From: Nemania diffusa | Lineage: Eukaryota; Ascomycota; Sordariomycetes; Xylariales; Xylariaceae | Length of the DNA: 64,000 nucleotides | Direction of reading: 5' to 3' | Assembly (NCBI GenBank): GCA_038501195.1 | Contig: JBBPUQ010000004.1 | Span: 5,718,001-5,782,000, forward strand | Shown here: positions 7,878 through 54,592 of the stretch, piece after piece | How the letters are laid out: the number at the start of each line of letters is the position of its first letter | Numbering within the stretch: the stretch's first letter is position 1 | Program-made: the position numbers and the translations under genes | The notes under the pieces: generated by a model | Database searches by the model: none | Told to the model about the DNA's origin: nothing | Seen by the model: only the letters and a program-made list of their open reading frames with translations

Positions 7878-7975
7878 TGTAACAAGTTATAAGTTAAAGT
7901 TAATTCTAAGCATTTGTTTAATTTAGTTAAAATTTTGTTTTATTTTTTTTATATTAATTATATGTATTTAATTAA

Positions 7976-21737: not shown

Positions 21738-21741
21738 GGAA

Positions 21742-21755: not shown

Positions 21756-21770
21756 GGGTACTATATATAA

Positions 21771-21801
21771 GCCATACAGGCCACACAGGCCACACAGGCC
21801 C
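21771..21801. repeat. 10-bp VNTR in the element
   Basis: Three units of GCCACACAGG (first unit GCCATACAGG). The mutated copy has about eight or nine corresponding 10-bp units (54476-54545), so this array changes length between copies. Confidence 0.85.
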
Positions 21802-21938
21802 TTCAACAGAGTAACAAAGGCAGCCCTCTCTTTTAGCCTCCTTCCTACCAACTGTGTGCTCCGCCGCGTAGGCGTTTCGCGCGCGCGGCTCCCGCTTCTT
21901 CCCAGCTAAAGGAGAGGACTGCTTTCGTTTTTAACGCC

Positions 21939-22058
21939 TCTAATCCTAGCTCTTCCAATTCTAGCCCTTCTAATCCTAGCTTTTCCAATCCTAGCCTTTC
22001 CAATTCTAGCCCTTCTAATCCTAGCTCTTCTAATCCTATCCCTTCTAATCCTAGCCCT
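21939..22058. repeat. 15-bp minisatellite in the element
   Basis: Eight units of 15 bp, consensus TCTAATCCTAGCCCT, with variants TCCAATTCTAGCCCT and similar. The mutated copy holds roughly three decayed units near 54270-54320. Confidence 0.9.
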
Positions 22059-22225
22059 AGGTCCTAGGCCTTTGTTGACTTGCAGTTAGGTCTGTAGGTA
22101 GGTAGGTAGATTAGTTGGTCACCTGGCAGGTAGGTAGGCCGGCTGGTGACCCACTTGGTAGGCTGGCAGGTCACTAGGTAAGTCGGTCAGTCACCTGACA
22201 GGTCGGTAGGTTGGTCAGTCACCTG

Positions 22226-22405
22226 ACTGGTAGGTAGGTAGGTTGACTGGTAAGTAGGTAGGTTGACTGGTAAGTAGGTAGGTTGACTGGTAAGTAGGTA
22301 GGTTGACTGGTAGGTAGGTAAGTTGACTGGTAAGTAGGTAGGTTGACTGGTAGGTAGGTAGGTTGACTGGTAGGTAGGTAGGTTGACTGGTAGGTAGGTA
22401 GGTCA
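22226..22405. repeat. 20-bp minisatellite in the element
   Basis: Nine units of exactly 20 bp, consensus ACTGGTAGGTAGGTAGGTTG, start at 22226, 22246 and so on to 22386. Flanking sequence from 22090 to 22600 is made of looser GGTAGGT, CAGGTCACCTG and similar pieces. The array keeps minus-strand frames open across 22215-22493 and 22219-22554 (Pro-Thr-Tyr-Leu repeats), which are repeat artefacts rather than genes. The mutated copy has about three units. Confidence 0.95.
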
Positions 22406-22599
22406 CCTGACAGGCAGCCAAGTCGGTAGGCCAACTGGTAAAGTGGTAGGTCGGCTGGTATGTCACCTGGTTGGCCGGTAGACTGGCTGGCAAGTGACCT
22501 GGTAGGTCGGCAGGTCACTTGGCAGGTAAGTAGGTCACCTGACAAGTAGGTCACCTAACAGGTAGGCAGGTCGGTTAGCCACCTGTCAGAGTGGTAGGT

Positions 22600-22617
22600 G
22601 AATATGTGTGTGTGTGT
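22600..22617. repeat. GT microsatellite
   Basis: A short run of GT repeats between the minisatellite and the unique part of the element. The mutated copy has a TA run at the same place (about 53860-53872), the expected product of C-to-T and G-to-A change. Confidence 0.85.
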
Positions 22618-22757
22618 ATTGTTGGGTGCCTATGACGTAGGCTCCGTAGGCTTTCTGTAGAGATTGTATGTGTAGAAGACAGCTTGTACGTAGGTATAGC
22701 CGGTTTAGCCGATTATAGCCGCGTGCATGCGATGGAAGCCGAATTGGACGAACTATA

Positions 22758-22906
22758 CCCAAATAGGCAGGGAGAACTTCTTATTTGGGATGAAAAACGG
22801 TCCTGGAAAATTTTCGACAACTAGCTGGCCCACTTTTCTCAAATAGGAAGGCAAAATTACTTATTTCGGCTATAGAATTCTGCTAGGAATTTTTTATGAC
22901 ACTAAG
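22758..22906. repeat. Diverged tandem duplication in the element 5' part
   Basis: Two related units of about 70 bp start at 22758 and 22838. Each opens with C(C/T)CAAATAGG, has a middle ending in CTTATTT or ACTTATTT, and continues with a GGAA, A/T-run and GACA order. The first unit also contains an inverted repeat, CCCAAATA (22758-22765) and TATTTGGG (22782-22789). This looks like an old duplication of a hairpin-forming site. Confidence 0.55.
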
Positions 22907-22940
22907 TAACTTTTCGTTTTATTTAGTCGTTTTTTTTTTG

Positions 22941-22954
22941 TTAAAAACGAAGGC
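22941..22954. repeat. Terminal inverted repeat of the element (5' end)
   Basis: TTAAAAACGAAGGC, perfect inverted match to 21742-21755. Alignment with the mutated copy shows this is the exact end on this side: the other copy starts at 53521 with the same bases after C-to-T and G-to-A changes. Confidence 0.85.
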
Positions 22955-31140: not shown

Positions 31141-31899
31141 TTGTTTTTATAATAGTATTAATAATAAAATAATAATTAAAAATATAAAATTAATAATATT
31201 ATATAATATTTATAATAATAATTATAAAAAAAAATATAAAAATAAAATTAAAATTTATTTTATAAAAAATATATAAATTAATAAATAAATAAAATATAAT
31301 TAAAATAATAAAATAAATTATTTAGTTTTTTTTATTATATTTATTTTAAAAATATATATATATATTTTATATATTTTAATTTTAAAATAATAAAATATAA
31401 TTATAAATTTAAATATAAATATATATATTATAATAAATATATTTAAATAAAATATTAATATTATATTTTAATAAGTTTTTTTATTTAAATTTATAATAAT
31501 AAAAAAAATAAAATAAATTTTTTAAAAAATTAATATTTTTTTTTAATATTATAATAAAATAATAAAATATTTAATAATTATTTTTTTTATATTTATTATA
31601 TATTATAATTTATTTTATATTTATATTTAAATAAATTTTTTTAATTTAAATTTATAATAATAAAAAATATAAATTAATATATTTTATAATATTTTAATAA
31701 AATATTAAAAAATTAAATATTTATTTTTTTTATATTTATAATTTATTTTATATTTATTATTTAATATAATAAATTTAATTTAATATTTATATTATAAATA
31801 TTATTTAATTTAAAATTAAAATAAAATTTATAATAATAATATTTATATTAAAAAAATTAAAAAAATAAATTTTAAATAATATATATAATATATATAATA

Positions 31900-32035
31900 T
31901 AAATAAATATATAAAATTTATAATATATATATAAAATATAAAATATATAAAATATATAAAATAAATATAATATATAAAATATATAAAATATATAAAATAT
32001 ATAAAATATATAAAATATTTAAAATATATATATAT
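31900..32035. repeat. 11-bp AT minisatellite in the core
   Basis: Repeats of about 11 bp built on ATATATAAAAT, most regular at 31965-32020. Confidence 0.75.
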
Positions 32036-34219
32036 AATTTTATTTAAAATATAATTATTTATTTTTAAAATTAATTTATTTTATTTATAATAATAATTTA
32101 TTTATATAAATTTATTAAAATATTAATATATATTTTTTAAATTAAATTAATTTTTATATATTAAAATATTATTTATTTAATAATATAATTAAAATTTATT
32201 ATTAAAATTTTATATATTATATATAAATATTTAATAATTAATTTATAATTTTTTATTTATTTATTATATTATTTAAATTATTAATATAAAATATTTTTAA
32301 TTTATATATATAAATATTATAATAATAATATAATATTAAATTAATTTAATTAATATTTTAATTAATATTATTAATTTAAAATTTAATATAATTTATTATT
32401 ATTTTTAATTAATTTTATAAATATTTAATATTAATATTATTTTTTTTATTAATTATATTTTAATTTATATTATTTTTATAAAAATAAAATAAATTTTTAT
32501 AATTTAAAAATATTTATATAAAAAATTATTATTATAAATATAATAATAATATAATTTTATTTATTAATATTTTATTTAAAAAATATTTTTAATTATTATA
32601 ATAATTTTAAATTTTTTATATTTATAATATTTAAATTTATATTAAATAATTAAAAAAATATTTTATTTATATAATTAATATTTTATATTATAATTTATTA
32701 TATAATTATAATTATTATAAATATTAAATTATATATTATATTTAAATTTAATTTATAATTAAAATTATTATATTATTTTATAATTTAAAATTAAAATTAT
32801 ATATAAAAAAATTAAATATTAATTATTAAATATATTTAAAAAATATAATTTTAAATAATTTTTATTTTTATATATATTTAATATTTATAATTTATAATTT
32901 AAAATATATAAAAATTTAAATTTAATAATTAAATAAATATTTTTAAAATTATTAATTAATTATAAATTAAAAATATAAAATTAATTTAATTAATATTTAT
33001 AATTTATAATTATAAAATTATAATAAATAAAATTTTAAATATAATAAATAAAATAAATATTATATTATAAAAAATATAAAATATTTAAAATTTTTAAAAT
33101 TATAAAATTATAAAAAATATTTAAATATAATTTAATATAAATTTTAAAATATAAATATAATTTTATTATAATATTTAAAATTTATATTTATTATAATATT
33201 ATTAAATTTTTTATTTTAATTAAATATTATTTATTATTATATATATTAAATATATAATTATAATTATATATTTTAATTTTAATTTTTTAATTTTTTTAAT
33301 TTTTTTATAATAAATATATTTTAATTTTTAAATTTATATAATTTAAAAATTTATTTAAATTTTAAAGAAATTTATTTAATATATTAATTTTATTATATAT
33401 TTTATATTATTTTATTAAATAATATTTATTATTAAAATAAATTAATTAAATTAATTAAATTATATTAAAAATATAATTATATATATATATAAATAATTAA
33501 ATATTTTATAAATATTATTTTTAATATATTATTTTAATTATATATTATATAAAATTATAAAATTTAATTAATTATATTTATTATATTAATTTAATTTATT
33601 ATTTTTAATAAAAATATATTATATATAATATTATTTATAATTTTATAAAATTTATTAATTTTTTATTTATATATTTATAATAATATAAATTATATTAAAT
33701 TAATTATAAATTTATATATATAAATATAAAAAAATAATAAATTTTTAATTTTTTTATTTTAAATAATTTTAAATTAATAATAATTTAAATAAAAGGTTTT
33801 TTTATTATCAATTATAAAATAAAAATATTTTAATTTATTTTAATTTAATTAATTAATTATTATAATTATTTATTAAATTTTATTAAATTTATAAATTAAT
33901 TTATAAATATATTTAAATTTATTTATATTATTTAATATATTTAAATTTTATTAATTTTATATATATATTTTTAATTTTATAATATTATTAATTTTATTAA
34001 TTAATTAAATTATATAATATAATTAAAATTTAAAATATTAATATTAAAATTAAATTATTAAAATAAAATTATTATAATAATAATATTTAAATAAATAAAT
34101 AAAATATAAATTAATAATATAAATTAATAAAAATATTAATATTTATTTATTATATATTATATTATAGTTTTATTAATAAAAATTATTAATTTATTTATTT
34201 TATTTATATAATTTAAAAT

Positions 34220-34490
34220 TTATAATTTAATATAATTTATATATATATATATTTATATATAAATATATTTAATTAAAATTTTAATAAATTAATTTAATAA
34301 ATATAAAATAAAAAAATTTATTAAAATTTTTAAAATTAATAAATTTTATATAAATATATATATAAATAATTTATATATATTTTATTTAATAATATTTTAT
34401 ATTTTAATATATATATATATATTAATATAAAATTTTAAAATTTAAAAATAAAATTTAAATATTTTAAATTATAATTATAAATTTATAAAA
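34220..34490. repeat. Diverged copy of the ~300-bp core repeat
   Basis: Shares the order of blocks with 36131-36440 and 40571-40870: TA run, TTTAATTAAAATTTTAA, TAAATAATTTATATAT, a second TA run, then AATATAAAATTTTAAAATTTAAAAATAAA-like sequence. It is more diverged than the other two. Confidence 0.5.
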
Positions 34491-36130
34491 TTAAAAATTA
34501 AAAATTAATTTATTTTAAAAATAATTTTTATAATATATATTTTATTTTTTTATATAAAATATAAATAATAATTTTTATTAAATAATTAAAAATATATTAA
34601 ATAAATTATTAAATAAAATTAAATTTAAATATAATAAATATAAAAAAAATTTTAATATTTTTTTAATTAAATTTATATAAAATTTAATTAAATTATAAAT
34701 TTTTTTATATATTTTATAATTTTTTTTTTATTTATAATTATATTTATATTTATAATAAAAATAATAATAATTATAATTATTAAAATAATTTAATATAATA
34801 TATTTATAATTTTATATAATAAAATTAAATTTATATATAAATAAAAAATAAAAATTATATATTTTATATAAAAAATAAATTAAAATTTTTTTAATTATAT
34901 TTAATTTAAAATTAATTATTAATATTAATTTTAATTTATATTATAAATTATATATAATAAAATTTAAATAAAATATAATATTATAATTATATAATATTAT
35001 TATTATTTTAATATTTAAAAAAATATTTTATATATATAATATATATATATATATTTATTTTATAAATTAATTAAATATTTATTAATATTATATATAATAA
35101 AATATAAATAATTATTTATTAAATAATATATAAAATATATAAAATAAATTTTAATATTTAAAATTTTATATTTTAATTATAATTTTATATATATATAAAT
35201 AATTAATAAAAATTAATATTTTTAATATATAATTAAATTTATTTTTTATTAATTTAATATATTTTTTATATTTTTTATTAAATAATTTATATAATAATAT
35301 AATATTAATTATAAATTTATTTTTTAATAATATATTAAATTTAATTATATAATTATATAATAATTTTTATTTAAAATATAATATTATTAAAATTTATAAT
35401 ATAATTAATATTTTTAAAACTTTTTAAATAATTATATAAAAAATAATTATATTATTAAATTAAATAATTATTATATATAATTTATAAATTAATATATTTT
35501 TAATTATTTATTTATATTTAATTAAATTTTAATAAATAATATTATATTTTTATTATAATTTTTAATTTAATATAATTATATTAATTTTTTAAATATTAAT
35601 AATTTAAATAATAATAAATAAATTATATAAAATTTTTAATTAATAAATATTATATTTTAATATATTATTATATAAAATTTTTATATTAAAATTAATTTTA
35701 AATAATTATATTATTTAATTTTTTTAAATTAAAATAATATATTAATTTTAAATTTTATAATATTAAATTAAAATTTTTTTTAATTATAAATTTTAAAATT
35801 ATAAATTTAAAAATATTATTTTTTAATAATTAATAAATTAATATTATATATAATAATAATTATTTTAATTTTTTAAAAATATTTATTTTTAAATTTAATA
35901 AATAAATATATATAAATTTATTAATTAATTATATATATATTTATATAATAATTTATAATTTATATAATATATTATAATTTTAAAATAAAATAAAATTAAA
36001 AATTAAAATTAAATATTAATTTATTTATAAATTGTTTTAATTTTATATTATTAATTAAAATTTTTTATATAATTAAATATTTTTATATATAATTTTATAT
36101 TTAAATTTTAATTTAAAAATTTAAAAATTA

Positions 36131-36440
36131 TAATATTTATTAAATTAATAATTTAATAAAATTTATATATATATATTAAATATATATAATTAAAATTTAA
36201 ATTAAAATTTTTATTAAATAAATAAAAAATATAAAAATTAATTAAAATTTATAAAATTTATAAAATTTATAAATATATATATATAAATAATTTATATATA
36301 ATTTTATTAATTATATTTTTTTTTATAATATATATATATAAATTAATATAAAATTTTAAAATTTAAAAATAAATTTTAAATTTTATAAATTTTTTTAAAT
36401 TTTTATATATATATATATATATAAAATTTTATTAATATTA
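36131..36440. repeat. ~300-bp core repeat, copy 2 (possible left LTR)
   Basis: Aligns nearly base for base with 40571-40870. Shared blocks are AAATTAATAATTTAATAAAA, a TA run, ATATAATTAAAATTTAAATT, and AATATAAAATTTTAAAATTT. Some C and G of the partner (AAACTTTTA, AAGTTTTAAACTTTA) are T or A here. Two direct copies about 4.44 kb apart would fit the LTRs of a 4.7-kb retroelement. Confidence 0.65.
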
Positions 36441-39400
36441 ATTAATAATTATAAAAAATAATTATAAATTAATAAAATAAAAAAATAAAATTTAATTATA
36501 ATATAATTTTTATATTTAATATTTTGTTTTTTATATAAAAAATAAATTAATATTTATATTAATTAAAAAAAAAAAAATTAAATTAATTATTAAATAAAAA
36601 AAATTTAAATATTATAAAATTAAAATAATTTTTTATATAATAATTTTATTATTTTTATATAAAAATTAATAAAATTTTAAATTATTTTATTTATTTTTAT
36701 ATTTATTTTTTTTTATAATTTTATTAAAATTTATATATAAATTAATTATAATAATTATAATTATAATAATTAAAATTAATTATTTTAATTTTTTAAATAA
36801 AAAATTATATTTATTTTTATATAAAAATAAAATTAAAAAAAAATAAAATTAATTTAAAATATTAAAATATTATAATTAATTTAAATAATATAATTATTTT
36901 AATATAATTATTAATATATTTTATATAATATTTAAAAAAATATATATAATTAAAAATTAAAAATAAATAATTTATATAAATATTTATAATAATTTTTAAT
37001 AATTAAATTAAAGTTATATTTATAAATATTAATTATATATTTAAATAAATATTTATTATAATAATTAAATATAATAAAAATATAAAAATATATAAAAAAA
37101 TATTAAATAATTAATTTATATATATTTTTAAAAAATTTAATAAAAATAATAATAAAAATTTAAATAATAATAAATTTATATAAATAATTTTAATATTTAT
37201 ATTAATAAATATATTAAAATTAATAATTATATAAATATATTTTTTAATATTATAATTAATTATATTAAAATTAATAATATTAATATATAATATATTTTAA
37301 AATTTAATTATTATAAAAAAATATTATTTTATATAATAATTATATAAATATATTTTAATATATTTAAATTTAAATTTATTTTAATATATTTAAATTTAAA
37401 TTTATTTTAATTAATTAAAAATTAATATATAAAGTTTTATTTTTTAATTTATAAATAATATTATAAATTTTTTTTAATTAAAAAATAAATTATTATTATA
37501 TATTAAATATTTATTTTATTAATAAATAATATAATATTAAATATTTAAAATAATTATATAATTATAATTATAAAAAAAATTTTATTTAAAATTATTATAA
37601 TTATATAATAAAAATAATAAAAATAATAAAAAATATTTTATTTATAAAAAATTTAATTATTAAATTATTAATTATAATTAATAAAAAAAATTAAAAATAA
37701 AATATTTTATTATATATAATATTTTAAAATAAAAAAATATAATATATTTATATTAAATTATAAAAATAATAAAAACTTTTTATATAATAATAAATTTAAT
37801 AATAATTTAAATTTTAAAATTAAAAATAAAATAATTTATTTTTTAATAAATTTAATATATTTTTATTATATAATAAAAAAAAATATATATATTTAAAATT
37901 AAATATTAATATTAAATAATTTTTATTTAAATTATTAATATAATATAAAATATTAAAATATTTTATAAAATATTAATATAATTAAAGTTTTAATTATTAA
38001 AAAAGTTTAAATTAAAACTTTTATATAAAAAATTTTTTTTATATAAATAAATTAAATTTTAAATTATAGAATAATTTAATTTAATAATATTAAAAATTTT
38101 AAAATTATAAATATTATAATAATTTTAATATTAATTAAATTAATTAAATTTTATATTTTAAATATATTAATTATATAAAAATAAAAATAATTATTTTTTA
38201 ATATTAATTAATTAAAAATTAAAAATTATTTTATAAAATAAAAATTTTAAAAATTATATTATTAATTTAAATATTTTTATATAAAAAATATATATAAAAT
38301 TATTATAAAAAATTAAAAAGTTTTATTATTATTATTAATTATATAATTAAATTTTAAAAAAATTAAAATTTTATTAAAAAAATAAATATAATTTTAATTA
38401 TAAAATTATTATTAATATTATATAAATTAATAAATAATTAATATAAATATTTTATTTTATATAATTAAATTTTTAAAATTTTTAAATATATATAATATTT
38501 AAAATATATTATATTAATATTAAATTTTAATATATTAAATATTATTTAAATATATTATATATAATTTTAATATAAATTTTTATTTAAAAATTTTTATAAT
38601 AATATATAATTAATTAAAACTTTATATAAAAAAATATTTATTAAAATAAAATAAATTATTATAAAAATTAAATATTATATAAATAAAAAAATAATATTAT
38701 AAATAATATATTTAAATTAAATAATTTTATATTTATTTTTTTAATTTTTAAAATTTATTTTAAAATTAATAAAAATTTATTTTTTTTATTAAAAATTATA
38801 TAAAAAATTATAAAAATATTAAAAAATATTTATATAAATATTAATATTAATTAAATTATATAAATTAAAAAAAAAATTAATATTATTATATAAAATATAT
38901 TTTTTATTTTTTTAAAATAAAATTATAATATAAAAAAAATTTAAAAATTAAATAAAACTATATAAAATTTTTATAATTAAAAATTATAATATTATAATTA
39001 ATATAATAAATAAATTAATTAAATTTTATTATATATAAATTAAATTATATTAATAATAAAAAATTATATTTTATTTATAATATAAAAAAATAATTTTTTA
39101 TATAATTTTTTTTAAATTATTAAATAATTATAATTTTAATATTAAAATAAATTAAAAAATTATTTATATTTATTAATAATTAATATTTTATATTAAAAAA
39201 AATTAATAATTATATTTTAATTATAAAATTAAAATAAAATAAAATAATTATTATATTTAATATATTTTTTAAATAATTAAATATAATTAAAATAAATATA
39301 TTAATAATTTAAAATATATTTTAATATATATAATATAATTTAATTTAATATAATTAAATAAAAATATTTTAAATTAAATTTATATAAAAAATTAAAAATA

Positions 39401-40570
39401 AAATAATTAAATTATATAAAAAGTTTAAATTAATTATATAAAATTATAAAAATAATAATAAAATTTAAATTTTTATATAAATATTAATAATTTAATATAT
39501 AAATTAATAATTTATTATAATTTTAAAATTATTATTAATTTAAAATTATATAATAAATAAAATTAAAAAATTTATATTTAATAAATATTATATTTTAAAT
39601 TATATAATTATTATATAAATTAATTAAATTAAAATTATATTAATATAAAATTTATTATAAATATTATTATTAAAAATTAAATATAAAAATATTTATATAT
39701 AATTTATATTTATTATATATTAAATTTTTTTTTTATAAATTTATAATTATAAAATTTTAAATAAATAATATTTTTAATATTATATTTAAAAAGTTTTTAT
39801 ATAAAAAAAAACTAAATTGTTATTTTATATAAAATTAAAAATAAAATTAATATTTAAATATTTTATTAAATTTAATAAAAATAAAATTTAAATAAATAAA
39901 TAAATTAAATAATTATATGTTATTAATTTTAATATAAAAAATTATTTTTAATAATATATTATTTAATAAATTAAAAAAATATTATATAATTTATTAATTA
40001 TTATATAAATTTAAAAATTATTAAAAAATAATATTAAAAAATTAAATATATAAATATAATAATAAATTAATAATATATAATAAAAATTATATTATTTATT
40101 TTTAAATTTTAATTATATAAAAATTTTTATTTTTATTAATAAAATATTTATAAATAATAAACATTTAAATTTTTAAATTAAATTTATAATTATATTAATT
40201 AATAAAAATTATATAAAAAATATTTTTATAATTAAAAATAATATAATTTATTAAAATTTAATTAAATATAAATAAATTATATATAATTTATTAATAAATA
40301 AATTATATAATATAATTAATAAATTTAATTATATTAATATATTTAATAAAACTTTTTAAAAAATTATTTTTATAATAAAATTATTAATTATATTATTAAT
40401 TATATATATAAAGTTTAAATTTTTATATAAATATTTATAAAAAAAAAATATTTAATTAAATATTAAAAATATTAATTATATAAATAAAAATATATATATA
40501 TTAATTAAATAATAAAAAAAATAATAAAAAATTAATTAATATTAAAATTAAAATTATAATATAAAAAAAA

Positions 40571-40870
40571 AATATTTAATATTAAATTAATAATTTAATA
40601 AAATTTATATATATATATTAAATATATATAATTAAAATTTAAATTAAAACTTTTATTAAATAATTAAATAAATAAAAAATATAAAAATTTATAAATTTTA
40701 TATATATATATATATAAATAATTAATATATAATTTTTTTAATTATATTTTTTTATTTAAAATATATATATAAATTTATATAAAATTTTAAAATTTAAAAA
40801 TAAGTTTTAAACTTTATAAATTATTTTAAATTTATATATATATATATATATATATAATTTTATTAATAAT
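40571..40870. repeat. ~300-bp core repeat, copy 3 (possible right LTR)
   Basis: Direct repeat of 36131-36440 and slightly less mutated. The 4.1 kb between the two copies is pure AT-rich sequence with no readable frame, so a retroelement origin rests on spacing and orientation only. Confidence 0.65.
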
Positions 40871-42827
40871 ATTTATTAAAATTATATTTTATAAATTTAA
40901 ATTTTTTTATAAAATATTTATTAAAATAAATAATATATTATTTTTATTATTTTATTTTATATTTTTTATTAATAATAATAAAATATAATTTATATATAAT
41001 AAAACTTTATAAAATTATTAATTATATTAATATTAATATTAAATATTTTAATAATTTATATTTTATATAAATTAAATAATTATATAAATTAATTATATAA
41101 ATAATTTTATTTTTAATTAATATATTAAAAATATTTATATAATTTTTATTAAAAGTTTTTATATTTTATATAATATTTAAAAATAATAAAAATTTTTAAT
41201 TAATTTATTAATATATATTAATAATAATTATATTATTAAATTTTTTATTATTTTTTATAAAATTATTTTATTTTTTATATTATAATTTATTTTATTTTTT
41301 AAAATATTATATATATAATAATAAAATTTATATATTTTTTTAATTTTATTAATAATTTAATTAAATTTAATAAATATTTTTTAATATATAATAATTTTAA
41401 TTTTAATTTAATATTAATTAAATAAATATTTTATTTAATAATTATTTAATTATTATTAAAAATATAAAAATATATATAAATATTAATAAAAAATATTTTA
41501 TAAATTAATTTTTAAAATATTAAAAATATTATTAATTTAAATAATATATAATATATATATATATAATAATTAATATTTAAAATTTATTAAATATTTTTTA
41601 TAAAGTTTTTTTTAAAAAAATTTATATTATTTATATAAAAATATTAAATATATAATTAATTTAATATTAATTTTATAATATATTTTATATTAAAATTTAT
41701 TTAATTTAATATTATATATAAATAAATAATATATATTATTTATTATTTAATATTTTAATTTTTATTAATTATATTTATTATTTTAAATAAAAAGTTATAT
41801 TATTAATATTAATATATAATAAATATTTTTTTATTATTTTTTTATTAATAAATTTTTTTATTATATAAATTTAAAAATAATATTATAATATATAAATTTT
41901 ATTAAAAAGTTTTAAATTAAATTAATATTAATTATAATAATATAATTATAAATTTATAATAAAATATTAAAATAAATATTAAAATAAATTTTATTATTTA
42001 AAAAATTATATAATTTATTAAAATATTATATTTTTTTAATAATATAATTTTATTTTATATAAAATATATAAATAATAAATATAAATAAATATATTATAAT
42101 ATTAAATTTAAAATTATATAATAATTTATATAAAAAATAAAAATTATTAAATAATAATAAAAAATATTATTATTATAAATATAAATATAAATTATATTAA
42201 TAATTTAAAGTTTTAATATTTTAATATTTTAATTAATTATATAAATTTTTATAAATATAAATTATAATTTAAATATAATTAATTATTTAAAAACTTTTAA
42301 TATATAAATAAAATTTAAATAAATATATTTTATATATAAATATATAAATATATATTAATAATAATTTAAATTTAATTTATTTTAAATAAATATTTTTATA
42401 TAATATTATTATTAATTTTAATAATTATAATAATTTTTTAATTATTATAATTTAATTTTTTATTAAAAATATTAAAAAATTATTATAATTAAAAATAACA
42501 AATTATTAAATAAAAAATATAAATATATAATATAAAATTTATATTTTAATTTATTATTATTATTATATATATAAAAAATAATATAATTATTAATTAATAT
42601 TAATTTAATTTTATATATTAAATTATATATAATAAATAATAAATTTATAATTAAATAATTAAAATTAATTTTAATAATAATTTATTTATATTATAATATA
42701 TTTATTTTTTTAAATTAAATATTTTTAATTATATTATTATAATTATAATTAATAATTTAAATATTTTAATTAATTTATTAATATTTTATAAAATTATAAT
42801 ATTATTTATAAATTTAAATATTAAAAT

Positions 42828-42902
42828 AATTAATATAATAAAAAAAAATATATTAAATATAATTAATATAATAAAAAAAAAATATATTAAATATAATATT
42901 AT
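42828..42902. repeat. 37-bp tandem duplication in the core
   Basis: Two units containing AATATAATAAAAAAAA and ATATTAAATATAAT. Confidence 0.7.
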
Positions 42903-43559
42903 TTTAATTTTATATTTAAAATTTTTTTTTAATATATAAAATATATATATATATATTATTAATATTATTTATAATAAAATATAATAATTTATTTAATAAA
43001 TAAATAATAAATTAAATAATAAAATTTAAATATATATTTATTATAAATAATATTATTGTTTTAATAAATAAATTATAAAAGTTTTTTTTATATTAAATAA
43101 ATTTAATATATTTATAAATTTTAAAAATTTTATTAATTAAAATTTATATTATATTATATATATATAATTATTATTAATAAAATAGTAATTTTAAATAATT
43201 TAATATAAATAATATATATTATATTTATATATAAAAAAAAAATTAAAAATATAATATATTATTATAATTAAAATAATTTTTTTAAAATAAAAAATATAAT
43301 TATAATTAAAATTTAACTTTTTTAATAATATAATATAATTTTAAAAAATATTAATTATTATATTATTAATTATTTAATATATAAAAATATATATTTATAT
43401 AAATAAAAAGTTATTTTATTAATATATAATTTTTTTTTTAAAAAAAAATTAATTTTATTATTTTAAATATTAATTAAAGTTATTTTTTAATTATAAATTA
43501 TATTATATAAATTTATAAATATTTTTTTTTTTTAAATTATTTTAAATAAATTAAAATAA

Positions 43560-43875
43560 ATTAATATTAAATTATAATTTAAATTATAATATAAAAATAT
43601 ATAATATAATTAAAAATATAATTAATATAATAATTTTATTATAATTATAATTTAAAATAAAAATATAATTAAAATTTAAAATTATAATTTAATAAAATAT
43701 AATATAAATTAAATTATAATATAAAAATATAAAATATAAATAATTTAAATTATAATTTAATAATATAAAATATAATTTAAATTATAATTTAAAAATATAA
43801 AATATAAATAATTTAAATTATAATTTAAAAATATAAAATATAAATAATTTAAATTATAATTTAAAAATATATAAT
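43560..43875. repeat. AT minisatellite at the right edge of the core
   Basis: Roughly eight units of 36-37 bp built on AATTTAAATTATAATTTAAA and ATATAAAATATAA. It ends where the higher-order satellite array begins. Confidence 0.75.
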
Positions 43876-43885
43876 ATTATTATTT

Positions 43886-46800
43886 TAATAGTATTTTTAT
43901 AATTAAAGTTACTATAATGCTTTTTATAAGTTAAACCTATTTTAAAACTAGTGTATTTTTTAATACTTTTATAAAGTATTAAAAAATTTTTTAACTTATT
44001 TTTTTATAATTTAATTAAAATAAAAATAACTTTTTTTTTTTTTTAATTTAATAATATTTTTATAGTTAAAATTATTATAATACTTTTTATAAGTTAAACT
44101 TGTTTTAAAACTAATATATTTTTTAGTACTTTTATAAAGTGTTAAAAAATTTTTCAATTTATTTTTTTATAATTTAATTAAAATAAAAATAACTTTTTTT
44201 TTTTTTTAATTTAATAGTTTAATAATATTTTTATAGTTAAAATTAATATAGTACTTTTTATATTTTAAACTTATTTTAAAACTAATATATTTTTTGCTAT
44301 TTTTACAAAGTATTAAAAAATATATTATTTACTATATATTTTATATTAAAAATATTAAATATATTTATTATTTTTATATTTTTTTTTATTTTATTTTTTA
44401 TGTTTTTTAGTTTATTTTTTTTTTTTTTTTTTTATATATATTAGTTTTTTTATATTTAGTTACTATTAAAAATTATATATAATTTATTATAATATTTATT
44501 AATAAATTTATTAAATTTTTCTATTAAATTTTTTTTTTAAATTTAAATTTTTAAAATTGGATTTTTTTATATATTTTTTATATAGTTTTATTTTATATTT
44601 TTTACTAATTTTATTATTACTTTTTATTTTTGTTTATTTTAAAAACTTATAAAGTTTTATTTTTTTTTTTTTAAATAATTTAGTTTAAACAAATAAGTTT
44701 TTAACTTTATTAAAACTAATTAAAACAAAACTATTAATAGTTTTATTTAAATTTTATTTTAATAAATTTTAAAATAATACTTTGTTATAACTACTACAAT
44801 TTGTTAATTTTATTTGTTTAATTTATTTATAAATTTAATTTATTTTTTTTTTTTTTTTTTTAAATTTTAATATATATAATATAATTTTTTAAAAATCTTT
44901 TTAATTATTTATACTATTATTTTTTTTTTTTTTTTTTTTTATTAATATAAAGTTTAATTTATTAATTTAAAAACTTAAAGTATTAAATTTATTTATAAAT
45001 TAATATATATTAATATTTTTTAAAATTTTATTTTATTTTAATGTTAAAAGCAGTTTTTAGTTTATTTTATATAATTATTTATATTATTTAAATTAGTTTT
45101 TTTTGTTTGTTTAAACTATATAATTTAATTAAACAAATATTTATTTTTTATATTATAGTTAATTTTACAATTTTAAAAAATTTTTAATTTAATAATATTT
45201 TTATAATTAAAGTTATTATAGTGCTTTTTATAAATTAAACTTATTTTAAAACTAGTGTATTTTTTAGTACTTTTATAAAATATTAAAGAATTTTTTAACT
45301 TATTTTTTTATAATTTAATTAAAATAAAAATAACTTTTTTTTTTTTTTAATTTAATAGTATTTTTATAGTTATAGTTATTATAATGCTTTTTATAAATTA
45401 AACTTATTTTAAAACTAGTATATTTTTTAATATTTTTATAAAATGTTAAAAAATTTTTCAACTTATTTTTTTATAATTTAATTAAAATAAAAATAACTTT
45501 TTTTTTTTTTTAATTTAATAATATTTTTATAGTTAAAATTATTATAATACTTTTTATAAATTAAACTTATTTTAAAATTAATATATTTTTTAATACTTTT
45601 ATAAAATATTAAAAAATTTTTCAATTTATTTTTTTATAATTTAATTAAAATAAAAATAACTTTTTTTTTTTTTTAATTTAATAGTTTAATAATATTTTTA
45701 TAGTTAAAATTAATATAGTATTTTTTATATTTTAAATTTATTTTAAAACTAGTATATTTTTTGCTATTTTTATAAAATGTTAAAAAATATATTATTTATT
45801 ATATATTTTATACTAAAAATATTAAAAATATTTATTATTTTTATATTTTTTTTTATTTTATTTTTTATATTTTTTAGTTTATTTTTCTTTTTTTTTTTTT
45901 ATATATACTAGTTTTTTTATATTTAGTTATTATTAAAAATTATATATAATTTATTATAATGTTTATTAATAAATTTATTAAATTTTTTTATTAAATTTTT
46001 TTTTTAAATTTAAATTTTTAAAATTGAACTTTTTTATATATTTTTTATATAGTTTTATTTTATATTTTTTTGCTAATTTTATTACTATTTTTTATTTTTG
46101 TTTATTTTAAAAATTTATAAAGTTTTATTTTTTTTTTTTTAAATAATTTAGTTTAAATAAATAAGTTTTTAATTTTATTAAAATTAATTAAAACAAAACT
46201 ATTAATAGTTTTATTTAAATTTTATTTTAATAAATTTTAAAATAATACTTTGTTATAACTATTATAACTTATTGATTTTATTTGTTTAATTTATTTATAA
46301 ATTCGATTTATTTTTTTTTTTTTTTTTTTTAAATTTTAATATATATAATATAATTTTTTAAAAATTCTTTTAACTATTTATATTATTATTTTTGTTTTTT
46401 TTTTTTTTTTTTATTAATATAAAGTTTAGTTTATTAACTTAAAAACTTAAAATATTAAACTTATTTATAAATTAATATATATTAATATTTTTTAAAATTT
46501 TATTTTATTTTAATATTAAAAGTAGTTTTTAGTTTATTTTATATAACTATTTATATTATATAAATTAGCTTTTTTTGTTTATTTAAATTATATAATTTAG
46601 TTAAAAAAATATTTATTTTTTATACTATAATTAATTTTATAATTTTAAAAAATTTTTAATTTAATAGTATTTTTATAGTTAAAGTTACTATAATGCTTTT
46701 TATAAATTAAACCTGTTTTAAAACTAACATATTTTTTAATACTTTTATAAAATGTTAAAAAATTTTTCAATTTATTTTTTTATAATTTAATTAAAATAAA

Positions 46801-49800
46801 AATAACTTTTTTTTTTTTTTAATTTAATAGTATTTTTATAATTAAAGTTACTATAATGTTTTTTATAAATCAAATTTATTTTAAAACTAATATATTTTTT
46901 AATACTTTTATAAAATATTAAAAAATTTTTCAATTTATTTTTTTATAATTTAATTAAAATAAAAATAACTTTTTTTTTTTTTTAATTTAATAGTTTAATA
47001 ATATTTTTATAATTAAAATTAATATAGTGCTTTTTATATTTTAAACTTATTTTAAAACTAGTATATTTTTTACTACTTTTATAAAATGTTAAAAAATATA
47101 TTATTTATTATATATTTTATATTAAAAATATTAAATATATTTATTATTTTTATATTTTTTTTTATTTTATTTTTTATATTTTTTAGTTTATTTTTTTTTT
47201 TTTTTTTTATATATATTAATTTTTTTATATTTAATTACTATTAAAAATTATATATAATTTATTATAATATTTACTAATAAATTTATTAAATTTTTTTATT
47301 AAATTTTTTTTTTAAATTTAAATTTTTAAAATTAAACTTTTTTATATATTTTTTATATAGTTTTATTTTATGTTTTTTATTAATTTTATTATTATTTTTT
47401 GTTTTTGTTTATTTTAAAAATTTATAAAGTTTTATTTTTTTTTTTTTAAATAATTTAGTTTTAACAAATAAGTTTTTAATTTTATTAAAACTAATTAAAA
47501 CAAAACTATTAATAGTTTTATTTAAATTTTATTTTAATAAAATTTAAAATAATATTTTGTTATAACTACTATAATTTGTTAATTTTATTTATTTAATTTA
47601 TTTATAAATTTGATTTATTTTTTTTTTTTTTTTTTTTAAATTTTAATATATATAATATAATTTTTTAAAAATCTTTTTAACTATTTATACTATTATTTTT
47701 TTTTTTTTTTTTTTTTTATTAATATAAAATTTAATTTATTAATTTAAAAACTTAAAGTATTAAATTTATTTATAAGTTAATATATATTAATATTTTTTAA
47801 AATTTTATTTTATTTTAATATTAAAAGCAGTTTTTAATTTATTTTATATAATTACTTATATTATTTAAATTAGCTTTTTTTATTTGTTTAAATTATATAA
47901 TTTAATTAAAAAAATATTTATTTTTTATATTATAGTTAATTTTACAATTTTAAAAAATTTTTAATTTAATAATATTTTTATAGTTAAAGTTACTATAATG
48001 TTTTTTATAAATTAAACTTGTTTTAAAACTAGCATATTTTTTAATATTTTTATAAAATATTAAAAAATTTTTCAACTTATTTTTTTATAATTTAATTAAA
48101 ATAAAAATAACTTTTTTTTTTTTTAATTTAATAGTATTTTTATAGTTAAAATTACTATAGTACTTTTTATAAATTAAATTTGTTTTAAAACTAATATATT
48201 TTTTAATATTTTTATAAAGTATTAAAAAATTTTTCAATTTATTTTTTTATAATTTAATTAAAATAAAAATAACTTTTTTTTTTTTTTAATTTAATAGTAT
48301 TTTTATAGTTAAAGTTATTATAATGTTTTTTATAAATTAAACTTGTTTTAGAACTAGTGTATTTTTTAGTACTTTTATAAAGTATTAAAGAATTTTTTAA
48401 TTTATTTTTTTATAATTTAATTAAAATAAAAATAACTTTTTTTTTTTTTTAATTTAATAATATTTTTATAGTTAAAGTTACTATAATACTTTTTATAAAT
48501 TAAACTTGTTTTAAAACTAGCGTATTTTTTAGCACTTTTATAAAGTGTTAAAAAATTTTTCAACTTATTTTTTTATAATTTAATTAAAATAAAAATAACT
48601 TTTTTTTTTTTTTAATTTAATAGTTTAATAATATTTTTATAATTAAAGTTAATATAATGCTTTTTATATTTTAAACTTATTTTAAAACTAATATATTTTT
48701 TACTATTTTTATAAAGTGCTAAAAAATATACTATTTATTATATATTTTATATTAAAAATATTAAATATATTTATTATTTTTATATTTTTTTTTATTTTAT
48801 TTTTTATATTTTTTAGTTTTTTTTTTTTTTTTTTTTTATATATACTAGTTTTTTTATATTTAATTATTATTAAAAATTATATATAATTTATTATAATATT
48901 TATTAATAAATTTATTAAATTTTTTTATTAAATTTTTTTTTTAAATTTAAGTTTTTAAAATTGGACTTTTTTATATATTTTTTATATAGTTTTATTTTAT
49001 ATTTTTTGCTAATTTTATTATTACTTTTTATTTTTGTTTATTTTAAAAACTTATAAAGTTTTACTTTTTTTTTTTTAAATAACTTAGTTTAAATAAATAA
49101 GTTTTTAACTTTATTAAAACTAATTAAAATAAAACTATTAATAGTTTTATTTAAATTTTATTTTAATAAATTTTAAAATAACATTTTATTATAACTATTA
49201 CAATTTGTTAATTTTATTTATTTAATTTGTTTATAAATTTAATTTATTTTTTTTTTTTTTTTTTTTAAATTTTAATATATACAATATAATTTTTTAAAAA
49301 TCCTTTTAATTATTTATACTATTATTTTTTTTTTTTTTTTTTTTTTATTAATATAAAGCTTAATTTATTAATTTAAAAACTTAAAATATTAAATTTATTT
49401 ATAAGTTAATATATACTAATATTTTTTAAAGTTTTATTTTATTTTAATATTAAAAACAGTTTTTAGTTTATTTTATATAATTATTTATATTATTTAAATT
49501 AGCTTTTTTTGTTTGTTTAAACTATATAATTTAATTAAAAAAATATTTATTTTTTATATTATAGTTAATTTTATAATTTTAAAAAATTTTTAATTTAATA
49601 GTATTTTTATAGTTAAAGTTATTATAATGTTTTTTATAAATTAAACTTATTTTAAAACTAATATATTTTTTAATATTTTTATAAAATGCTAAAAAATTTT
49701 TCAATTTATTTTTTTATAATTTAATTAAAATAAAAATAACTTTTTTTTTTTTTTAATTTAATAATATTTTTATAGTTAAAGTTACTATAGTGCTTTTTAT

Positions 49801-52555
49801 AAATTAAACTTGTTTTAAAAATTAATATATTTTTTAGTACTTTTATAAAGTGCTAAAAAATTTTTCAACTTATTTTTTTATAATTTAATTAAAATAAAAA
49901 TAACTTTTTTTTTTTTTTAATTTAATAGTATTTTTATAATTAAAATTATTATAATGTTTTTTATAAATTAAACTTATTTTAAAATTAATATATTTTTTAG
50001 TACTTTTATAAAGTGTTAAAAAATTTTTTAACTTATTTTTTTATAATTTAATTAAAATAAAAATAATTTTTTTTTTTTTTTAATTTAATAATTTAATAAT
50101 ATTTTTATAGTTAAAATTAATATAATATTTTTTATATTTCAAATTTATTTTAAAACTAGTATATTTTTTGCTATTTTTACAAAGTGTTAAAAAATATATT
50201 ATTTACTATATATTTTATATTAAAAATACTAAATATATTTATTATTTTTATATTTTTTTTTATTTTATTTTTTATATTTTTTAGTTTATTTTTTTTTTTT
50301 TTTTTTATATATATTAGTTTTTTTATATTTAGTTACTATTAAAAATTATATATAATTTATTATAATATTTATTAACAAGTTTACTAAATTTTTCTATTAA
50401 ATTTTTCTTTTAAATTTAAGTTTTTAAAATTGGATTTTTTTATATATTTTTTATATAGTTTTATTTTATATTTTTTGTTAATTTTATTATTACTTTTTAT
50501 TTTTATTTATTTTAAAAATTTATAAAGTTTTATTTTTTTTTTTTAAATAATTTAATTTAAACAAATAAGTTTTTAATTTTATTAAAATTAATTAAAACAA
50601 AATTATTAATAATTTTATTTAAATTTTATTTTAATAAATTTTAAAATAATATTTTATTATAACTATTACAATTTACTGATTTTATTTGTTTAATTTGTTT
50701 ATAAATTTAATTTACTTTTTTTTTTTTTTTTTTTAAATTTTAATATATATAATATAATTTTTTAAAAATCTTTTTAACTATTTATATTATTATTTTTGTT
50801 TTTTTTTTTTTTTTTTATTAATATAAAGCTTAATTTATTAATTTAAAAATTTAAAGTATTAAACTTATTTATAAGTTAATATATACTAATATTTTTTAAA
50901 ATTTTATTTTATTTTAATATTAAAAGCAGTTTTTAGTTTATTTTATATAACTATTTATACTATTTAAATTAGCTTTTTTTGTTTGTTTAAACTATATAAT
51001 TTAGTTAAAAAAATATTTATTTTTTATATTATAGTTAATTTTACAATTTTAAAAAATTTTTAATTTAATAATATTTTTATAGTTAAAGTTAATATAATAC
51101 TTTTTATATTTTAAATTTATTTTAAAACTAGTATATTTTTTGCTACTTTTATAAAGTATTAAAAAATATATTATTTATTATATATTTTATACTAAAAATA
51201 TTAAATATATTTATTATTTTTATATTTTTTTTTATTTTATTTTTTATATTTTTTAGTTTATTTTTTTTTTTTTTCTATATATACTAGTTTTTTTATATTT
51301 AGCTATTATTAAAAATTATATATAATTTATTATAATATTTACTAATAAGTTTACTAAATTTTTTTATTAAATTTTCTTTTTAAATTTAAGTTTTTAAAAT
51401 TAGACTTTTTTATATATTTTTTATATAGTTTTATTTTATGTTTTTTGCTAATTTTATTATTACTTTTTGTTTTTGTTTATTTTAAAAATTTATAAAGTTT
51501 TACTTTTTTTTTTTTAAATAATTTAGTTTAAACAAATAAGTTTTTAATTTTATTAAAACTAATTAAAACAGAGCTACTAATAGCTTTATTTAAATTTTAT
51601 TTTAATAAATTTTAAAATAATACTTTGTTATAACTATTATAACTTGTTGATTTTATTTATTTAATTTGTTTATAAATTCGATTTATTTTTTTTTTTTTTT
51701 TTTTTTAAATTTTAATATATACAATATAATTTTTTAAAAATCTTTTTAACTATTTATACTATTATTTTTGTTTTTTTTTTCTTTTTTTATTAATATAAAG
51801 CTTAGTTTATTAATTTAAAAATTCAAAATGTTAAATTTATTTATAAGTTAATATATACTAATATTTTTTAAAATTTTATTTTATTTTAACGTTAAAAGCA
51901 GTTTTTAGTTTATTTTATATAACTATTTATACTATTTAAATTAGCTTTTTTTGTTTGTTTAAACTATATAATTTAGTTAAAAAAATATTTATTTTTTATA
52001 TTATAATTGATTTTATAATTTTAAAAAATTTTTAATTTAATAGTATTTTTATAATTAAAGTTACTATAGTGCTTTTTATAAATTAAACCTATTTTAAAAC
52101 TACTGTATTTTTTAATACTTTTATAAAATGCTAAAAAATTTTTCAACTCATTTTTTTATAATTTAATTAAAATAAAAATAACTTTTTTTTTTTTTTAATT
52201 TAATAGTATTTTTATAGTTAAAGTTACTATAATATTTCTTATAAGTTAAACTTATTTTAAAACTAGCGTATTTTTTAGCACTTTTATAAAGTGCTAAAAA
52301 ATTTTTCAACTTATTTTTTTATAATTTAATTAAAATAAAAATAACTTTTTTTTTTTTTTAATTTAATAGTTTAATAATATTTTTATAGTTAAAGTTAATA
52401 TAGTGCTTTTTATATTTTAAATTTATTTTAAAACTAATGTATTTTTTATTACTTTTATAAAGTATTAAAAAATATATTATTTATTATATATTTTATACTA
52501 AAAATATTAAATATATTTATTATTTTTATATTTTTTTTTATTTTATTTTTTATGT

Positions 52556-52588
<33 letters not shown>

Positions 52589-53345
52589 TATATACTAGTT
52601 TTTTTATATTTAGCTACTATTAAAAATTATATATAATTTATTATAATATTTACTAACAAGTTTACTAAATTTTTTTATTAAATTTTTTTTTTAAATTTAA
52701 ATTTTCAAAATTAGACTTTTTTATATATTTTTTATATAATTTTATTTTATGTTTTTTATTGATTTTATTATTACTTTTTGTTTTTGTTTATTTTAAAAAC
52801 TTATAAAGTTTTACTTTTTTTTTTTTAAGTAATTTAGTTTAAACAAATAAATTTTTAATTTTATTAGAATTAATTAAAGCGGAGCTATTAATAGTTCTAT
52901 TTAAATTTTATTTTAATAAATTTTAAAATAGTATTTTGTTATAACTATTACAACTTGCTAATTTTATTTATTTAATTTGTTTGTAAATTCGATTTATTTT
53001 TTTTTCTTTTTTTTTTAAATTTTAATGTATGCAATATAATTTTTTAAAAATCTTTTTAACTACTTATACTATTATTTTTTTTTTTTTTTTTTTTTTTTTA
53101 TTAATATAAAGCTTAGTTTATTAACTTAAAAACTCAAAATATTAAACTTATTTATAAGTTAATATATACTAATATTTTTTAAAATTTTATTTTATTTTAA
53201 TATTAAAAGCAGTTTTTAGTTTATTTTATATAACTATTTATATTATTTAAATTAGTTTTTTTTGTTTGTTTAAACTATATAATTTAGTTAAAAAAATATT
53301 TATTTTTTGTATTATAGTTAATTTTACAATTTTAAAAAATTTTTA
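43886..53345. repeat. Higher-order satellite array, seven units
   Basis: Seven 750-bp modules start at 44440, 45907, 47215, 48844, 50313, 51283 and 52594. Each is preceded by a variable number of ~165-bp sub-repeats and one variant sub-repeat joined to a short link. Full sub-repeats before the modules number 2, 3, 2, 4, 3, 0 and 2. Start-to-start distances (1467, 1308, 1629, 1469, 970, 1311) fit about 970 + 165n. Unequal crossing-over within the sub-repeats would explain this. Units share nearly the same mutated state, so either amplification followed mutation or the same sites were hit in each. No coding signal. Confidence 0.95.
47961..48837. repeat. Largest sub-repeat cluster of the array (four units plus variant)
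   Basis: Full ~165-bp units start at about 47961, 48124, 48288 and 48452, and the variant at 48613. Each unit runs from AATTTAATAGTATTTTTATA through a TAAACTTGTTTTAAAACTAG-like core and an AAAAAATTTTTCAACTTATT-like block to a T run. The variant replaces the second half with a sequence ending before the next module. Confidence 0.9.
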
Positions 53346-53520
53346 ATTTATATTTTATTTAAATTATAGTTATATAAACAATTTTTATTTTTTATATTAT
53401 ATTATAAAACTTTAAATTATTTTAATGTTTTAAATATTTAGTTTTAATATATTTATATTGCTAAATTATTATTATAAAAACAGTTTAATTAAAATTTTTA
53501 ATAAAAATTATTTTATATAT
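53346..53520. repeat. Array-to-composite-repeat junction, right copy
   Basis: Matches 781-960. It ends at the exact left boundary of the decayed mobile element. Confidence 0.8.
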
Positions 53521-54592
53521 ATTTTTGTTTTTAATAAAAAAAAAACAACTAAATAAAATAAAAAGTTACTTATAATGTTGTAAATAATTTTTAGCAGAAT
53601 TTTATAGCTGAAATAAGTAATTTTGCTTTTTTATTTAAAAAAAGTAAATTAACTAGTTGTTGAAAAATTTCTAAAACTGTTTTTTATTTTAAATAGAAAA
53701 TTTTTTCTGCTTATTTAAGTATAGTTCGTTTAATTCAGCTTCTATTGTATACACGTAGTTATAATTAGCTAAACTAGCTATACTTATGTACAAGCTGTTT
53801 TTTATATATATAATTTTTACAGAAAGCTTATAAAGCTTACGTTATAAATACTTAACAATATATATATATACTACTACTTTAACAAGTAGCTAATTAACCT
53901 GTTTATTTGTTAAATGACTTATTTATTAAGTAACTTATTTATTAAGTGATTTATTTATTTGCTAAATGATTTACCGACTTACTAAGTTATTTGCTAGCTA
54001 GTTTATTAGCTAACTAAATAATATATTAACTAACCTATTACTTTACTAGTTAGCTTACTGACTTAGCTGCTTGTTAAATAACTTATTTACTTACTAGTTA
54101 ACTTATTTATTTACTAATTAAGTAACTAACTTACTTACTTACTAGTTAAATAATTAACTGACTTATTTAGTAACTTGCTAGCTTACTAAGTAAGTTACTA
54201 GCTAGCTTACTTACTTATTAAATAACTAACTAACCTATTTATTTATTTGTAAATTTAACTGCAAGTTAACAAAAGCTTAAAACTTAAAGCTAAAATTAAA
54301 AAGCTAGAATTAAAAAAGCTAAAATTAAAAGCGTTAAAAACGAAAGCAGTTTTTTTTTTTAGCTAAAAAGGAGCAGAAGCTGCATACACGAAACATTTAC
54401 ACAGTAAAACATACAGTTAATAAAAAAAAAGCTAAAAAAAAAAGCTGCTTTTGTTTCTTATAGCTTATTAAAAGTTTATATAGCTTATATAGCTTGTATA
54501 GCTTATATAGCTTATATAGTTTATATAGTTTGTATAACTTGTAGCTTTTAAAAACAAAAGCTTTTTTACTTCTGATTTTAAAAAGCTTCTAA
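53521..54592 (+). mobile_element. Decayed, inverted copy of the Helentron-like element
   Basis: Aligns end to end with the reverse complement of 21711-22954. The left end ATTTTTGTTTTTAA is GCCTTCGTTTTTAA after G-to-A and C-to-T changes. The inner inverted repeat is TTAAAAACAAAAGC (54548-54561), and the 31-bp tail ends CTTCTAA. Over the first 274 bp of the alignment, 58 of 107 G:C pairs are now A:T, and only 4 A:T positions and one 2-bp indel differ otherwise. The minisatellites differ in length (20-bp array about 3 versus 9 units; 10-bp array about 8-9 versus 3). Flanks are T on both sides. Confidence 0.9.

Follow-up and report, generated by a model that had tools for sequence, protein, structure and literature searches.

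The window and its repeated element

The window, i.e. the whole stretch of 64,000 nt that was analysed, covers positions 5,718,001-5,782,000 of contig C4 in the genome of Nemania diffusa (55.6 Mb, 16 contigs). Its GC content is 8.3%; three stretches taken at round coordinates have GC contents of 47-49% (L046 and L048) and 3% (L047). The window contains two copies of a repeated element in inverted orientation, a GC-rich copy, referred to below as the "island", and a hypermutated copy. They lie among an AT block, a satellite array and a 12-kb block that is possibly centromeric (Table 1). Neither a tRNA gene (ARAGORN) nor an Rfam match at the gathering score was found in the whole window (1-64000).

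Table 1. Features of the window, with positions counted from its first base, and genes of the genome matching PF00383
Feature	Position	Strand	Remarks
Repeated element, GC-rich copy ("island")	21711..22954	+	48.8% GC; 100% self match; lightly edited
Hypermutated inverted copy of the element	53521..54592	-	About 21% GC; alignment and counts against the island
Inverted repeat, inner copy, GCCTTCGTTTTTAA	21742..21755	+	31 bp from the CTAG end; from sequence and copy borders
Inverted repeat, terminal copy, TTAAAAACGAAGGC	22941..22954	+	From sequence and copy borders
Internal array of the element, built of related 20-bp units (family D17)	22085..22548	+	
AT block	1..21710	.	About 8% GC; surviving C mostly after A or G
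12-kb block	31501..43500	.	0.36% GC; adjoins the satellite array; possibly centromeric
AT-rich satellite array	43714..53400	.	163-nt units within longer repeats of about 1.0-1.6 kb
PF00383 match, L055			dCMP deaminase-like (PDB or NCBIfam)
PF00383 match, L056			Tad2 (PDB or NCBIfam)
PF00383 match, L062			Tad3 (PDB or NCBIfam)
PF00383 match, L057			Cytidine deaminase (PDB or NCBIfam)
PF00383 matches, L058 and L059			RibD-type, weak
PF00383 match, L060			TadA-like, weak
PF00383 match, L061			Guanine deaminase-like, weak
PF00383 match, L063			Unnamed ninth match

A genome-wide DNA search with the element yielded at least 78 matches (40 of the 105 candidates were scored), and 37 further loci beyond the window were taken for comparison. 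The copies have fixed borders, i.e. the same start base in 16 of 17 aligned copies and an end within or close to the inverted repeat in all 17, and the partner of this repeat lies 31 bp inside the opposite (CTAG) end. The fixed termini and the asymmetric inverted repeat, with one copy terminal and the other about 30 bp inside, are shared with the non-autonomous Helitron2-type elements of fungi (PMC5148889). In contrast to these, the element has no coding frame of note, its terminal bases are unlike those of the published FoHeli, and the end of the window copy, the only one folded, forms no significant hairpin in comparison with shuffled sequences (z -0.19). Some of the published Helitron2-type members also lack a terminal hairpin (PMC5148889).

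Mutations in the hypermutated window copy

The earlier note, which was made from the window sequence alone, had aligned 274 bp of the two copies by hand and had counted changes at 58 of 107 G:C pairs and 4 of 167 A:T pairs. Realignment reproduced these values, with C-to-T or G-to-A changes at 57/106 G:C pairs and changes at 4/167 A:T pairs; the recount omits the end column, hence the difference of one pair. The fractions of changed cytosines depended on the 5′ base (CpC 25/26, TpC 19/26, GpC 8/29, ApC 5/25); sorted by the 3′ base, they were 13/20 for CpA, 16/28 for CpG, 13/26 for CpC and 15/32 for CpT. Over the whole pair, 287 of 503 G:C and 16 of 514 A:T pairs differ. The values for the 5′ base are 146/153 for CpC, 65/87 for TpC, 51/140 for ApC and 25/123 for GpC, so that 211/240 cytosines after a pyrimidine were changed, compared with 76/263 after a purine (Fisher p 1.3e-43). 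For the 3′ base, CpA was changed in 81/112 cases and all other CpN in 206/391 (p 2e-4); the 3′ base thus has an effect, but a subordinate one. The proposal that the 5′ base decides and the 3′ base has little influence is confirmed, and the dominance of the 5′ base was retained when both neighbours were regressed (see below).

The island had been regarded as a sister copy and not as the true ancestor, which is correct. In 915 usable columns it differs from the majority of 27 other high-GC copies and the island itself by 17 C-to-T or G-to-A changes and two other changes, and of the 16 edits whose 5′ base is known, 13 come after a pyrimidine. The island is therefore itself derived, albeit only lightly edited. 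Its edits do not create the 5′ rule, because the rates after pyrimidines exceed those after purines in all 13 low-GC copies when the column majority is used as reference.

The polarised spectrum across the element copies

Ancestral states were assigned to the columns in which the 27 high-GC copies and the island agreed by at least 80%. For every spectrum, the core of the internal array (element columns 496-700) was masked. Of the 1244 columns, 329 were left out, i.e. the 205 of the masked array and those with less than 80% agreement or too few copies. The derived set comprises the 13 copies with a GC content below 44%, a cut-off (0.44) that was chosen by us; L043 and the first fragment of L021 were left out as broken copies. 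The spectrum thus describes one transposon family in one genome.

The derived copies carry C-to-T or G-to-A changes at 1674/4618 G:C sites, only 12 other changes at G:C, and changes at 32/4664 A:T sites. Per site, C-to-T thus exceeds change at A:T 53-fold, which argues for a burst rather than for slow decay. At sites with a full trinucleotide, 1320/3762 G:C pairs were changed. The pooled rates are 0.53 after C (574/1085), 0.47 after T (311/665), 0.30 after A (300/995) and 0.13 after G (135/1017). For the 3′ base they are 0.43 for A (331/768), 0.41 for G (277/683), 0.39 for T (438/1113) and 0.23 for C (274/1198). In a logistic model with a term for each copy (3114 sites), dropping the -1 base costs a deviance of 347, compared with 54 for the +1 base, 44 for the -2 base and 22 for the +2 base; the -1 base thus explains 6.5 times the deviance that is explained by the +1 base. 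After pooling, the 5′ effect is present within every 3′ class. A 3′ purine raises the rate after purines (ACA 0.46 versus ACC 0.23; GCA 0.19 versus GCT 0.07) and adds hardly anything after pyrimidines. The rule for the base before the mutated cytosine is thus C >= T > A > G, and a purine on the 3′ side adds to the rate mainly where the 5′ base is also a purine.

These values allow the earlier claims to be graded. The rates after pyrimidines are above those after purines in each of the 13 copies, and the rule applies to both strands, as had been predicted, and the mutation is indeed set from the 5′ side, but the clean division into pyrimidines and purines has to be replaced by a graded series. 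In the pooled data, GpC is the protected class; it has the lowest rate in 12 of the 13 copies and shares a rate of zero with ApC in the remaining one. ApC is intermediate and less low than in the small sample of the earlier note, and its rate varies most among the copies, from 0.00 to 0.53. A dominance of CpA irrespective of the 5′ base was seen neither in this one polarised element nor in the composition of the AT-rich DNA described below. The earlier note had further stated that the pattern fits neither CpA-directed RIP nor a TpCpG rule, and both parts are upheld: the -1 base dominates, and TCG (91/200, 0.46) is not above other contexts such as TCC (0.47), TCT (61/110, 0.55) and CCT (297/534). 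In the copies L019, L026 and L034, CpG was mutated more often than CpA (L019: 22/55 versus 8/50).

Surviving cytosines in AT-rich DNA

The composition of AT-rich DNA can be analysed without any alignment. Within 49.5 kb of the window's AT DNA, A precedes a surviving C 2884 times, G 1220 times, T 326 times and C only 22 times. The quotients of observed and expected values are 1.42 for ApC, 6.1 for GpC, 0.16 for TpC and 0.11 for CpC; for the 3′ base they are 0.75 for CpA, 0.77 for CpG, 1.36 for CpT and 0.11 for CpC. On both strands of bases 1-21700, 1641 of the 1757 C sites follow A or G. Of the 43 C sites that remain on the two strands of the 12-kb block, 39 have an A before them. The AT-rich stretch elsewhere in the genome (L047, 10 kb) has the same 5′ pattern as the window, and 20 kb of GC-rich DNA from the two other stretches are flat and have no 5′ mark. 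The AT flanks of the other element copies, taken whole (63 kb), agree with the exception of CpC, which has a quotient of 1.40. When the flanks were divided into 150-bp pieces and only those with at most 15% GC were retained (51.75 kb, 24 loci), the quotients were 0.19 for TpC, 0.20 for CpC, 1.41 for ApC and 8.1 for GpC, and 0.61 for CpA, 1.42 for CpT and 1.32 for CpG. The decrease of CpC from 1.40 to 0.20 is due to the removal of mixed GC-rich pieces.

For comparison, both rules were simulated, starting from GC-rich DNA of the genome. The CpA weights followed those of N. crassa. The CpA rule leaves quotients of 0.12-0.30 for CpA, above 1.7 for CpC and CpG, and near 1.1 for GpC, whereas the 5′ rule at 10% GC leaves 7-8 for GpC and 0.02-0.40 for TpC. 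The observed residues match the simulated 5′ rule and are opposite to those of the CpA rule, so that the two rules can be told apart. The substrate index is about 0.5 in the observed DNA, compared with 0.8-1.0 after a pure 5′ rule, which indicates a modest CpA effect on top of the 5′ rule. A GC floor near 20% was considered as a further mark of the CpA rule and was dropped, as its simulation also reaches 10%.

Other repeats

In the window, five repeat families of the satellite DNA provided a further, though weaker, test, and TpC and CpC were mutated more often than ApC and GpC in three of them, two of which overlap. The 5′ rule was absent from family D13 (TpC 12/28 versus ApC 56/132) and from a 62-nt tandem repeat, in which every class has a value of 0.87-0.90. 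Summed over the families, GpC (0.51) is not below ApC (0.48). A second transposon was sought with PF03184, which has two matches at loci that share only 69 bp. PF00078 has 50 matches (15 on C12/C13, 11 on C14-C16 and 24 elsewhere), many of them with TAA stops. A self-comparison of the analysed loci for repeats of unequal GC content gave six rows, none of them useful.

The rDNA (5.8S, LSU) is located on C15, and the piece analysed (L066, C15:60001-61500) is unmutated and has a GC content of 50%. In Neurospora the rDNA is spared by RIP, and an unmutated piece would be expected if the same holds here. Very long open frames that match reverse transcriptase occur on C14-C16 and perhaps represent a retroelement inserted into rDNA.

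The spatial distribution of the mutations

Two modes can be distinguished. In the first, the mutations fill the repeat. Two copies at L039 are strongly mutated inside; DNA with 48% GC adjoins on one side, and on the other side a 300-bp dip to 15% GC is followed by a return to 46%. The mutated copy at L033 likewise has GC-rich DNA on one side, while its 5′ side borders an AT block. Mutated copies thus adjoin GC-rich DNA, and two GC-rich stretches are unmarked; yet mutation also enters from AT-rich flanks, which is the second mode. In many copies within AT blocks, the mutated fraction of YpC declines from 0.32-0.35 over the outermost 150 bp to 0.14 at a depth of 450-525 bp. GC-flanked ends have values of 0.02-0.05 over the outermost 225 bp and of 0.08-0.13 deeper inside; L039 and the window copy are not part of this profile. 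AT-flanked ends were more mutated than the centre in 21 of 34 cases, equal in 2 and less mutated in 11, while the corresponding values for GC-flanked ends are 4, 5 and 10 of 19. Over 66 ends, the GC content of the flank and the mutation of the end are correlated with a rho of -0.64. Pronounced examples are L019, with 0.81 at its 5′ end and 0/44 in the centre, and L034, with 0.75 and 0.83 at the ends and 0.14 in the centre. Some AT-flanked ends are untouched (L012 and the 5′ end of L022), perhaps because the insertions are recent. Inward mutation from the ends of GC-rich insertions in AT blocks was observed at L019, L022, L026 and L034.

The rates after C, T, A and G are 0.56, 0.46, 0.39 and 0.14 at AT-flanked ends and 0.53, 0.46, 0.31 and 0.09 in centres; this comparison comprises 16 end and 5 centre pieces that were picked after the positional profile had been seen. 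The rule is thus nearly equal in both modes, and one activity therefore probably dominates both.

Candidate enzymes

A search for RID- or DIM-2-type methyltransferases and for nucleic-acid cytidine deaminases had been proposed in the earlier note, and it turned up members of the first group. PF00145 has six matches in four genes. One gene (L051) is a DIM-2 gene, for which the best PDB chains are 9baq and 9bap (E 6e-143 and 5e-100). A GC-rich copy of the element (L012, C7:4337791-4338972) is located about 4 kb from it (region C7:4332865-4339000; L051, L053). Two further genes (L049, L050) are RID-like and have EQT in motif IV, which we take to be the mark of RID; other C5 methyltransferases carry ENV at this position. 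One of the two proteins shares 97% identity with a Hypoxylon argillaceum protein, followed by Nemania, and the second shares 94% with a Nemania diffusa protein. A tree was built from 43 rows, of which 41 had been selected by hand from the search matches. In it, the second gene (378-aa core) falls apart from the first into a clade of 15 rows (support 100/99), the members of which are all Xylariales or Xylariomycetidae by name. The two RID-like genes would thus represent an old duplication, as judged from the tree. The fourth gene lies in an open frame of 2142 aa (L054, C5:3725599).

We infer that 9baq and 9bap are the DIM-2 of a structural study in which an arginine is wedged beside the -1 nucleotide and Asn1170 contacts the +1 side; the study leaves the effect on the flanking preference open (PMC11315935). 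In the alignment of L051 with 9bap, the position of Arg1175 is kept as Arg and Asn1170 aligns with Leu, assuming an offset of two between the chain index and the published numbering, with which 7 of 7 looked-up residues of the target recognition domain match. The conserved arginine beside the -1 nucleotide of the solved structure makes DIM-2 the better single candidate.

The deaminase search covered three families, PF08210, PF00383 and PF14441. APOBEC_N (PF08210) had no match at E <= 1 in a six-frame search of the genome. Eight of the nine PF00383 matches were given the name of a housekeeping deaminase, four of them weakly (Table 1). Three genes of the OTT_1508 type are present (C6:2385096, C8:2140892 and C4:1604663).

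Comparison with known systems

The hypermutation resembles the RIP of N. crassa and other Pezizomycotina in several respects: C is changed to T on both strands, repeats become AT-rich, RID and DIM-2 homologues are present, and the rDNA piece is spared. The stringent RIP criteria are passed by 82 of 127 overlapping 1-kb windows. The median product index is about 1.2, the substrate index is about 0.5, and the AT blocks have 3-15% GC. In three control fungi that are positive for RIP, the large RIP regions have a higher GC content (21-23%), a higher product index (1.6) and a lower substrate index (0.2-0.3) (PMC7882544). The main difference is that the base before the cytosine dominates here and CpA is only slightly preferred. 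According to a 2025 survey of fungal genomes, RIP-like defences have the CpA preference in common; the accessible part of this survey describes two RIP pathways of N. crassa and does not analyse the 5′ neighbour of the cytosine (PMC12543289). Of these pathways, the heterochromatin-linked, DIM-2-dependent one shares with our case the presence of DIM-2 and the spreading of mutations beside AT-rich blocks.

The signatures named in the accessible literature are CpA, CpT, CpG or TpCpG (PMC4352252, PMC5381629). Repeats without a decrease of CpA have been described for Monacrosporium haptotylum (PMC3828140), so that a deviation from CpA is as such not novel. The RIP-like process of Pucciniomycotina (Microbotryum) shares the repeat-directed C-to-T change and the 5′ pyrimidine in the target, but it requires a 3′ G (PMC5381629), and CpC is as good as TpC in our case. 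A literature search, with most subscription papers outside its reach, found no report of a 5′-base rule.

Interpretation and alternatives

We favour, with a probability of roughly 70%, a RIP-like hypermutation of the methyltransferase type, with RID-like proteins and/or DIM-2 as probable actors, in which the target is read mainly on the 5′ side. Both strands of the repeats would be rewritten from C to T; the preceding base would set the rate in the order given above, and the 3′ base would count mainly after a purine. Repetition would be the trigger, presumably before meiosis as in Neurospora, and the 5′ rule would reside in the DNA contact of the enzyme. Several observations speak against this reading: the CpA preference, the usual mark in ascomycetes, is weak; the gradient from AT-rich flanks is found in only 21 of the 34 AT-flanked ends; ApC has a wide spread between copies; the satellite result is mixed (3/5); one of the 13 copies has strand runs; and CpC was not depleted in the whole AT flanks before the mixed GC-rich pieces were removed.

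A tentative second reading is a mutator distinct from CpA-directed RIP, which reads the 5′ side, acts on repeats and creeps in from AT blocks. It would be a specialised activity, i.e. the old second RID paralogue of Xylariales, a retuned DIM-2 or an unrecognised deaminase, and may be common in fungi and yet unseen, because the usual measures do not distinguish it from ordinary RIP (see below).

Slow decay is unlikely. It would consist in the spontaneous deamination of heterochromatic 5-methylcytosine, with a DIM-2 methylation that prefers YpC, and the inward gradient from AT-rich flanks and the presence of a DIM-2 gene would be compatible with it. The 53-fold excess of C-to-T and the heavy mutation of repeats that adjoin GC-rich DNA argue against it, as does mutation accumulation in N. 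crassa, in which no influence of either flanking base could be detected at C:G (PMC10234303).

Somewhat less probable still is the cytosine deaminase that the earlier note had suggested. Several APOBEC3 enzymes act at YpC, and an enzyme that is APOBEC-like in effect could edit repeats, or single-stranded intermediates of a rolling-circle-type element, at TpC and CpC. The likeness to APOBEC3-type deamination ends with this context, as the PF08210 search of the genome revealed no such domain and the PF00383 matches look like housekeeping enzymes. Strand-coordinated runs, which would be expected from a processive single-strand deaminase, are missing from 12 of 13 copies (|z| < 2, with L030 at z -1.99) and present in one copy at L039 (L039:2001, z -4.7). 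The same mark is also found on AT blocks and on some satellites that are not this element. The OTT_1508-type genes would offer candidates, but such proteins have been reported as A-to-I RNA editors in Neurospora (PMC12754623).

Classical CpA-directed RIP, with the 5′ pattern as an artefact of element composition or polarising, is very improbable: although many windows pass the stringent indices and CpA has a modest effect, the influence of the 5′ base persists when both neighbours enter the regression, holds in every 3′ class of the pooled data and marks unaligned AT DNA, in which a simulated CpA rule leaves the opposite residues. Dipyrimidine damage of the UV type, the context of which is C-to-T at TpC and CpC and which could account for double changes at RCC sites (126 versus 98.6 expected within copies), can practically be dismissed, because GC-rich stretches lack the mark, mutated copies adjoin unmutated DNA, the YpC change is absent from single-copy DNA, and the RCC excess is modest and may follow from spatial gradients.

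Implications for RIP in Xylariales

The standard indices call ordinary RIP here because surviving ApC lowers the substrate index in much the same way as lost CpA does. Neither these indices nor CN-to-TN counts separate a 5′ rule from ordinary RIP. The results make it testable whether the DIM-2 arginine beside the -1 nucleotide sets the sequence choice. If the 5′ rule is general in Xylariales, published CpA calls that are based on indices would need rechecking, and RIP would be able to move its specificity from the 3′ to the 5′ neighbour of the target cytosine.
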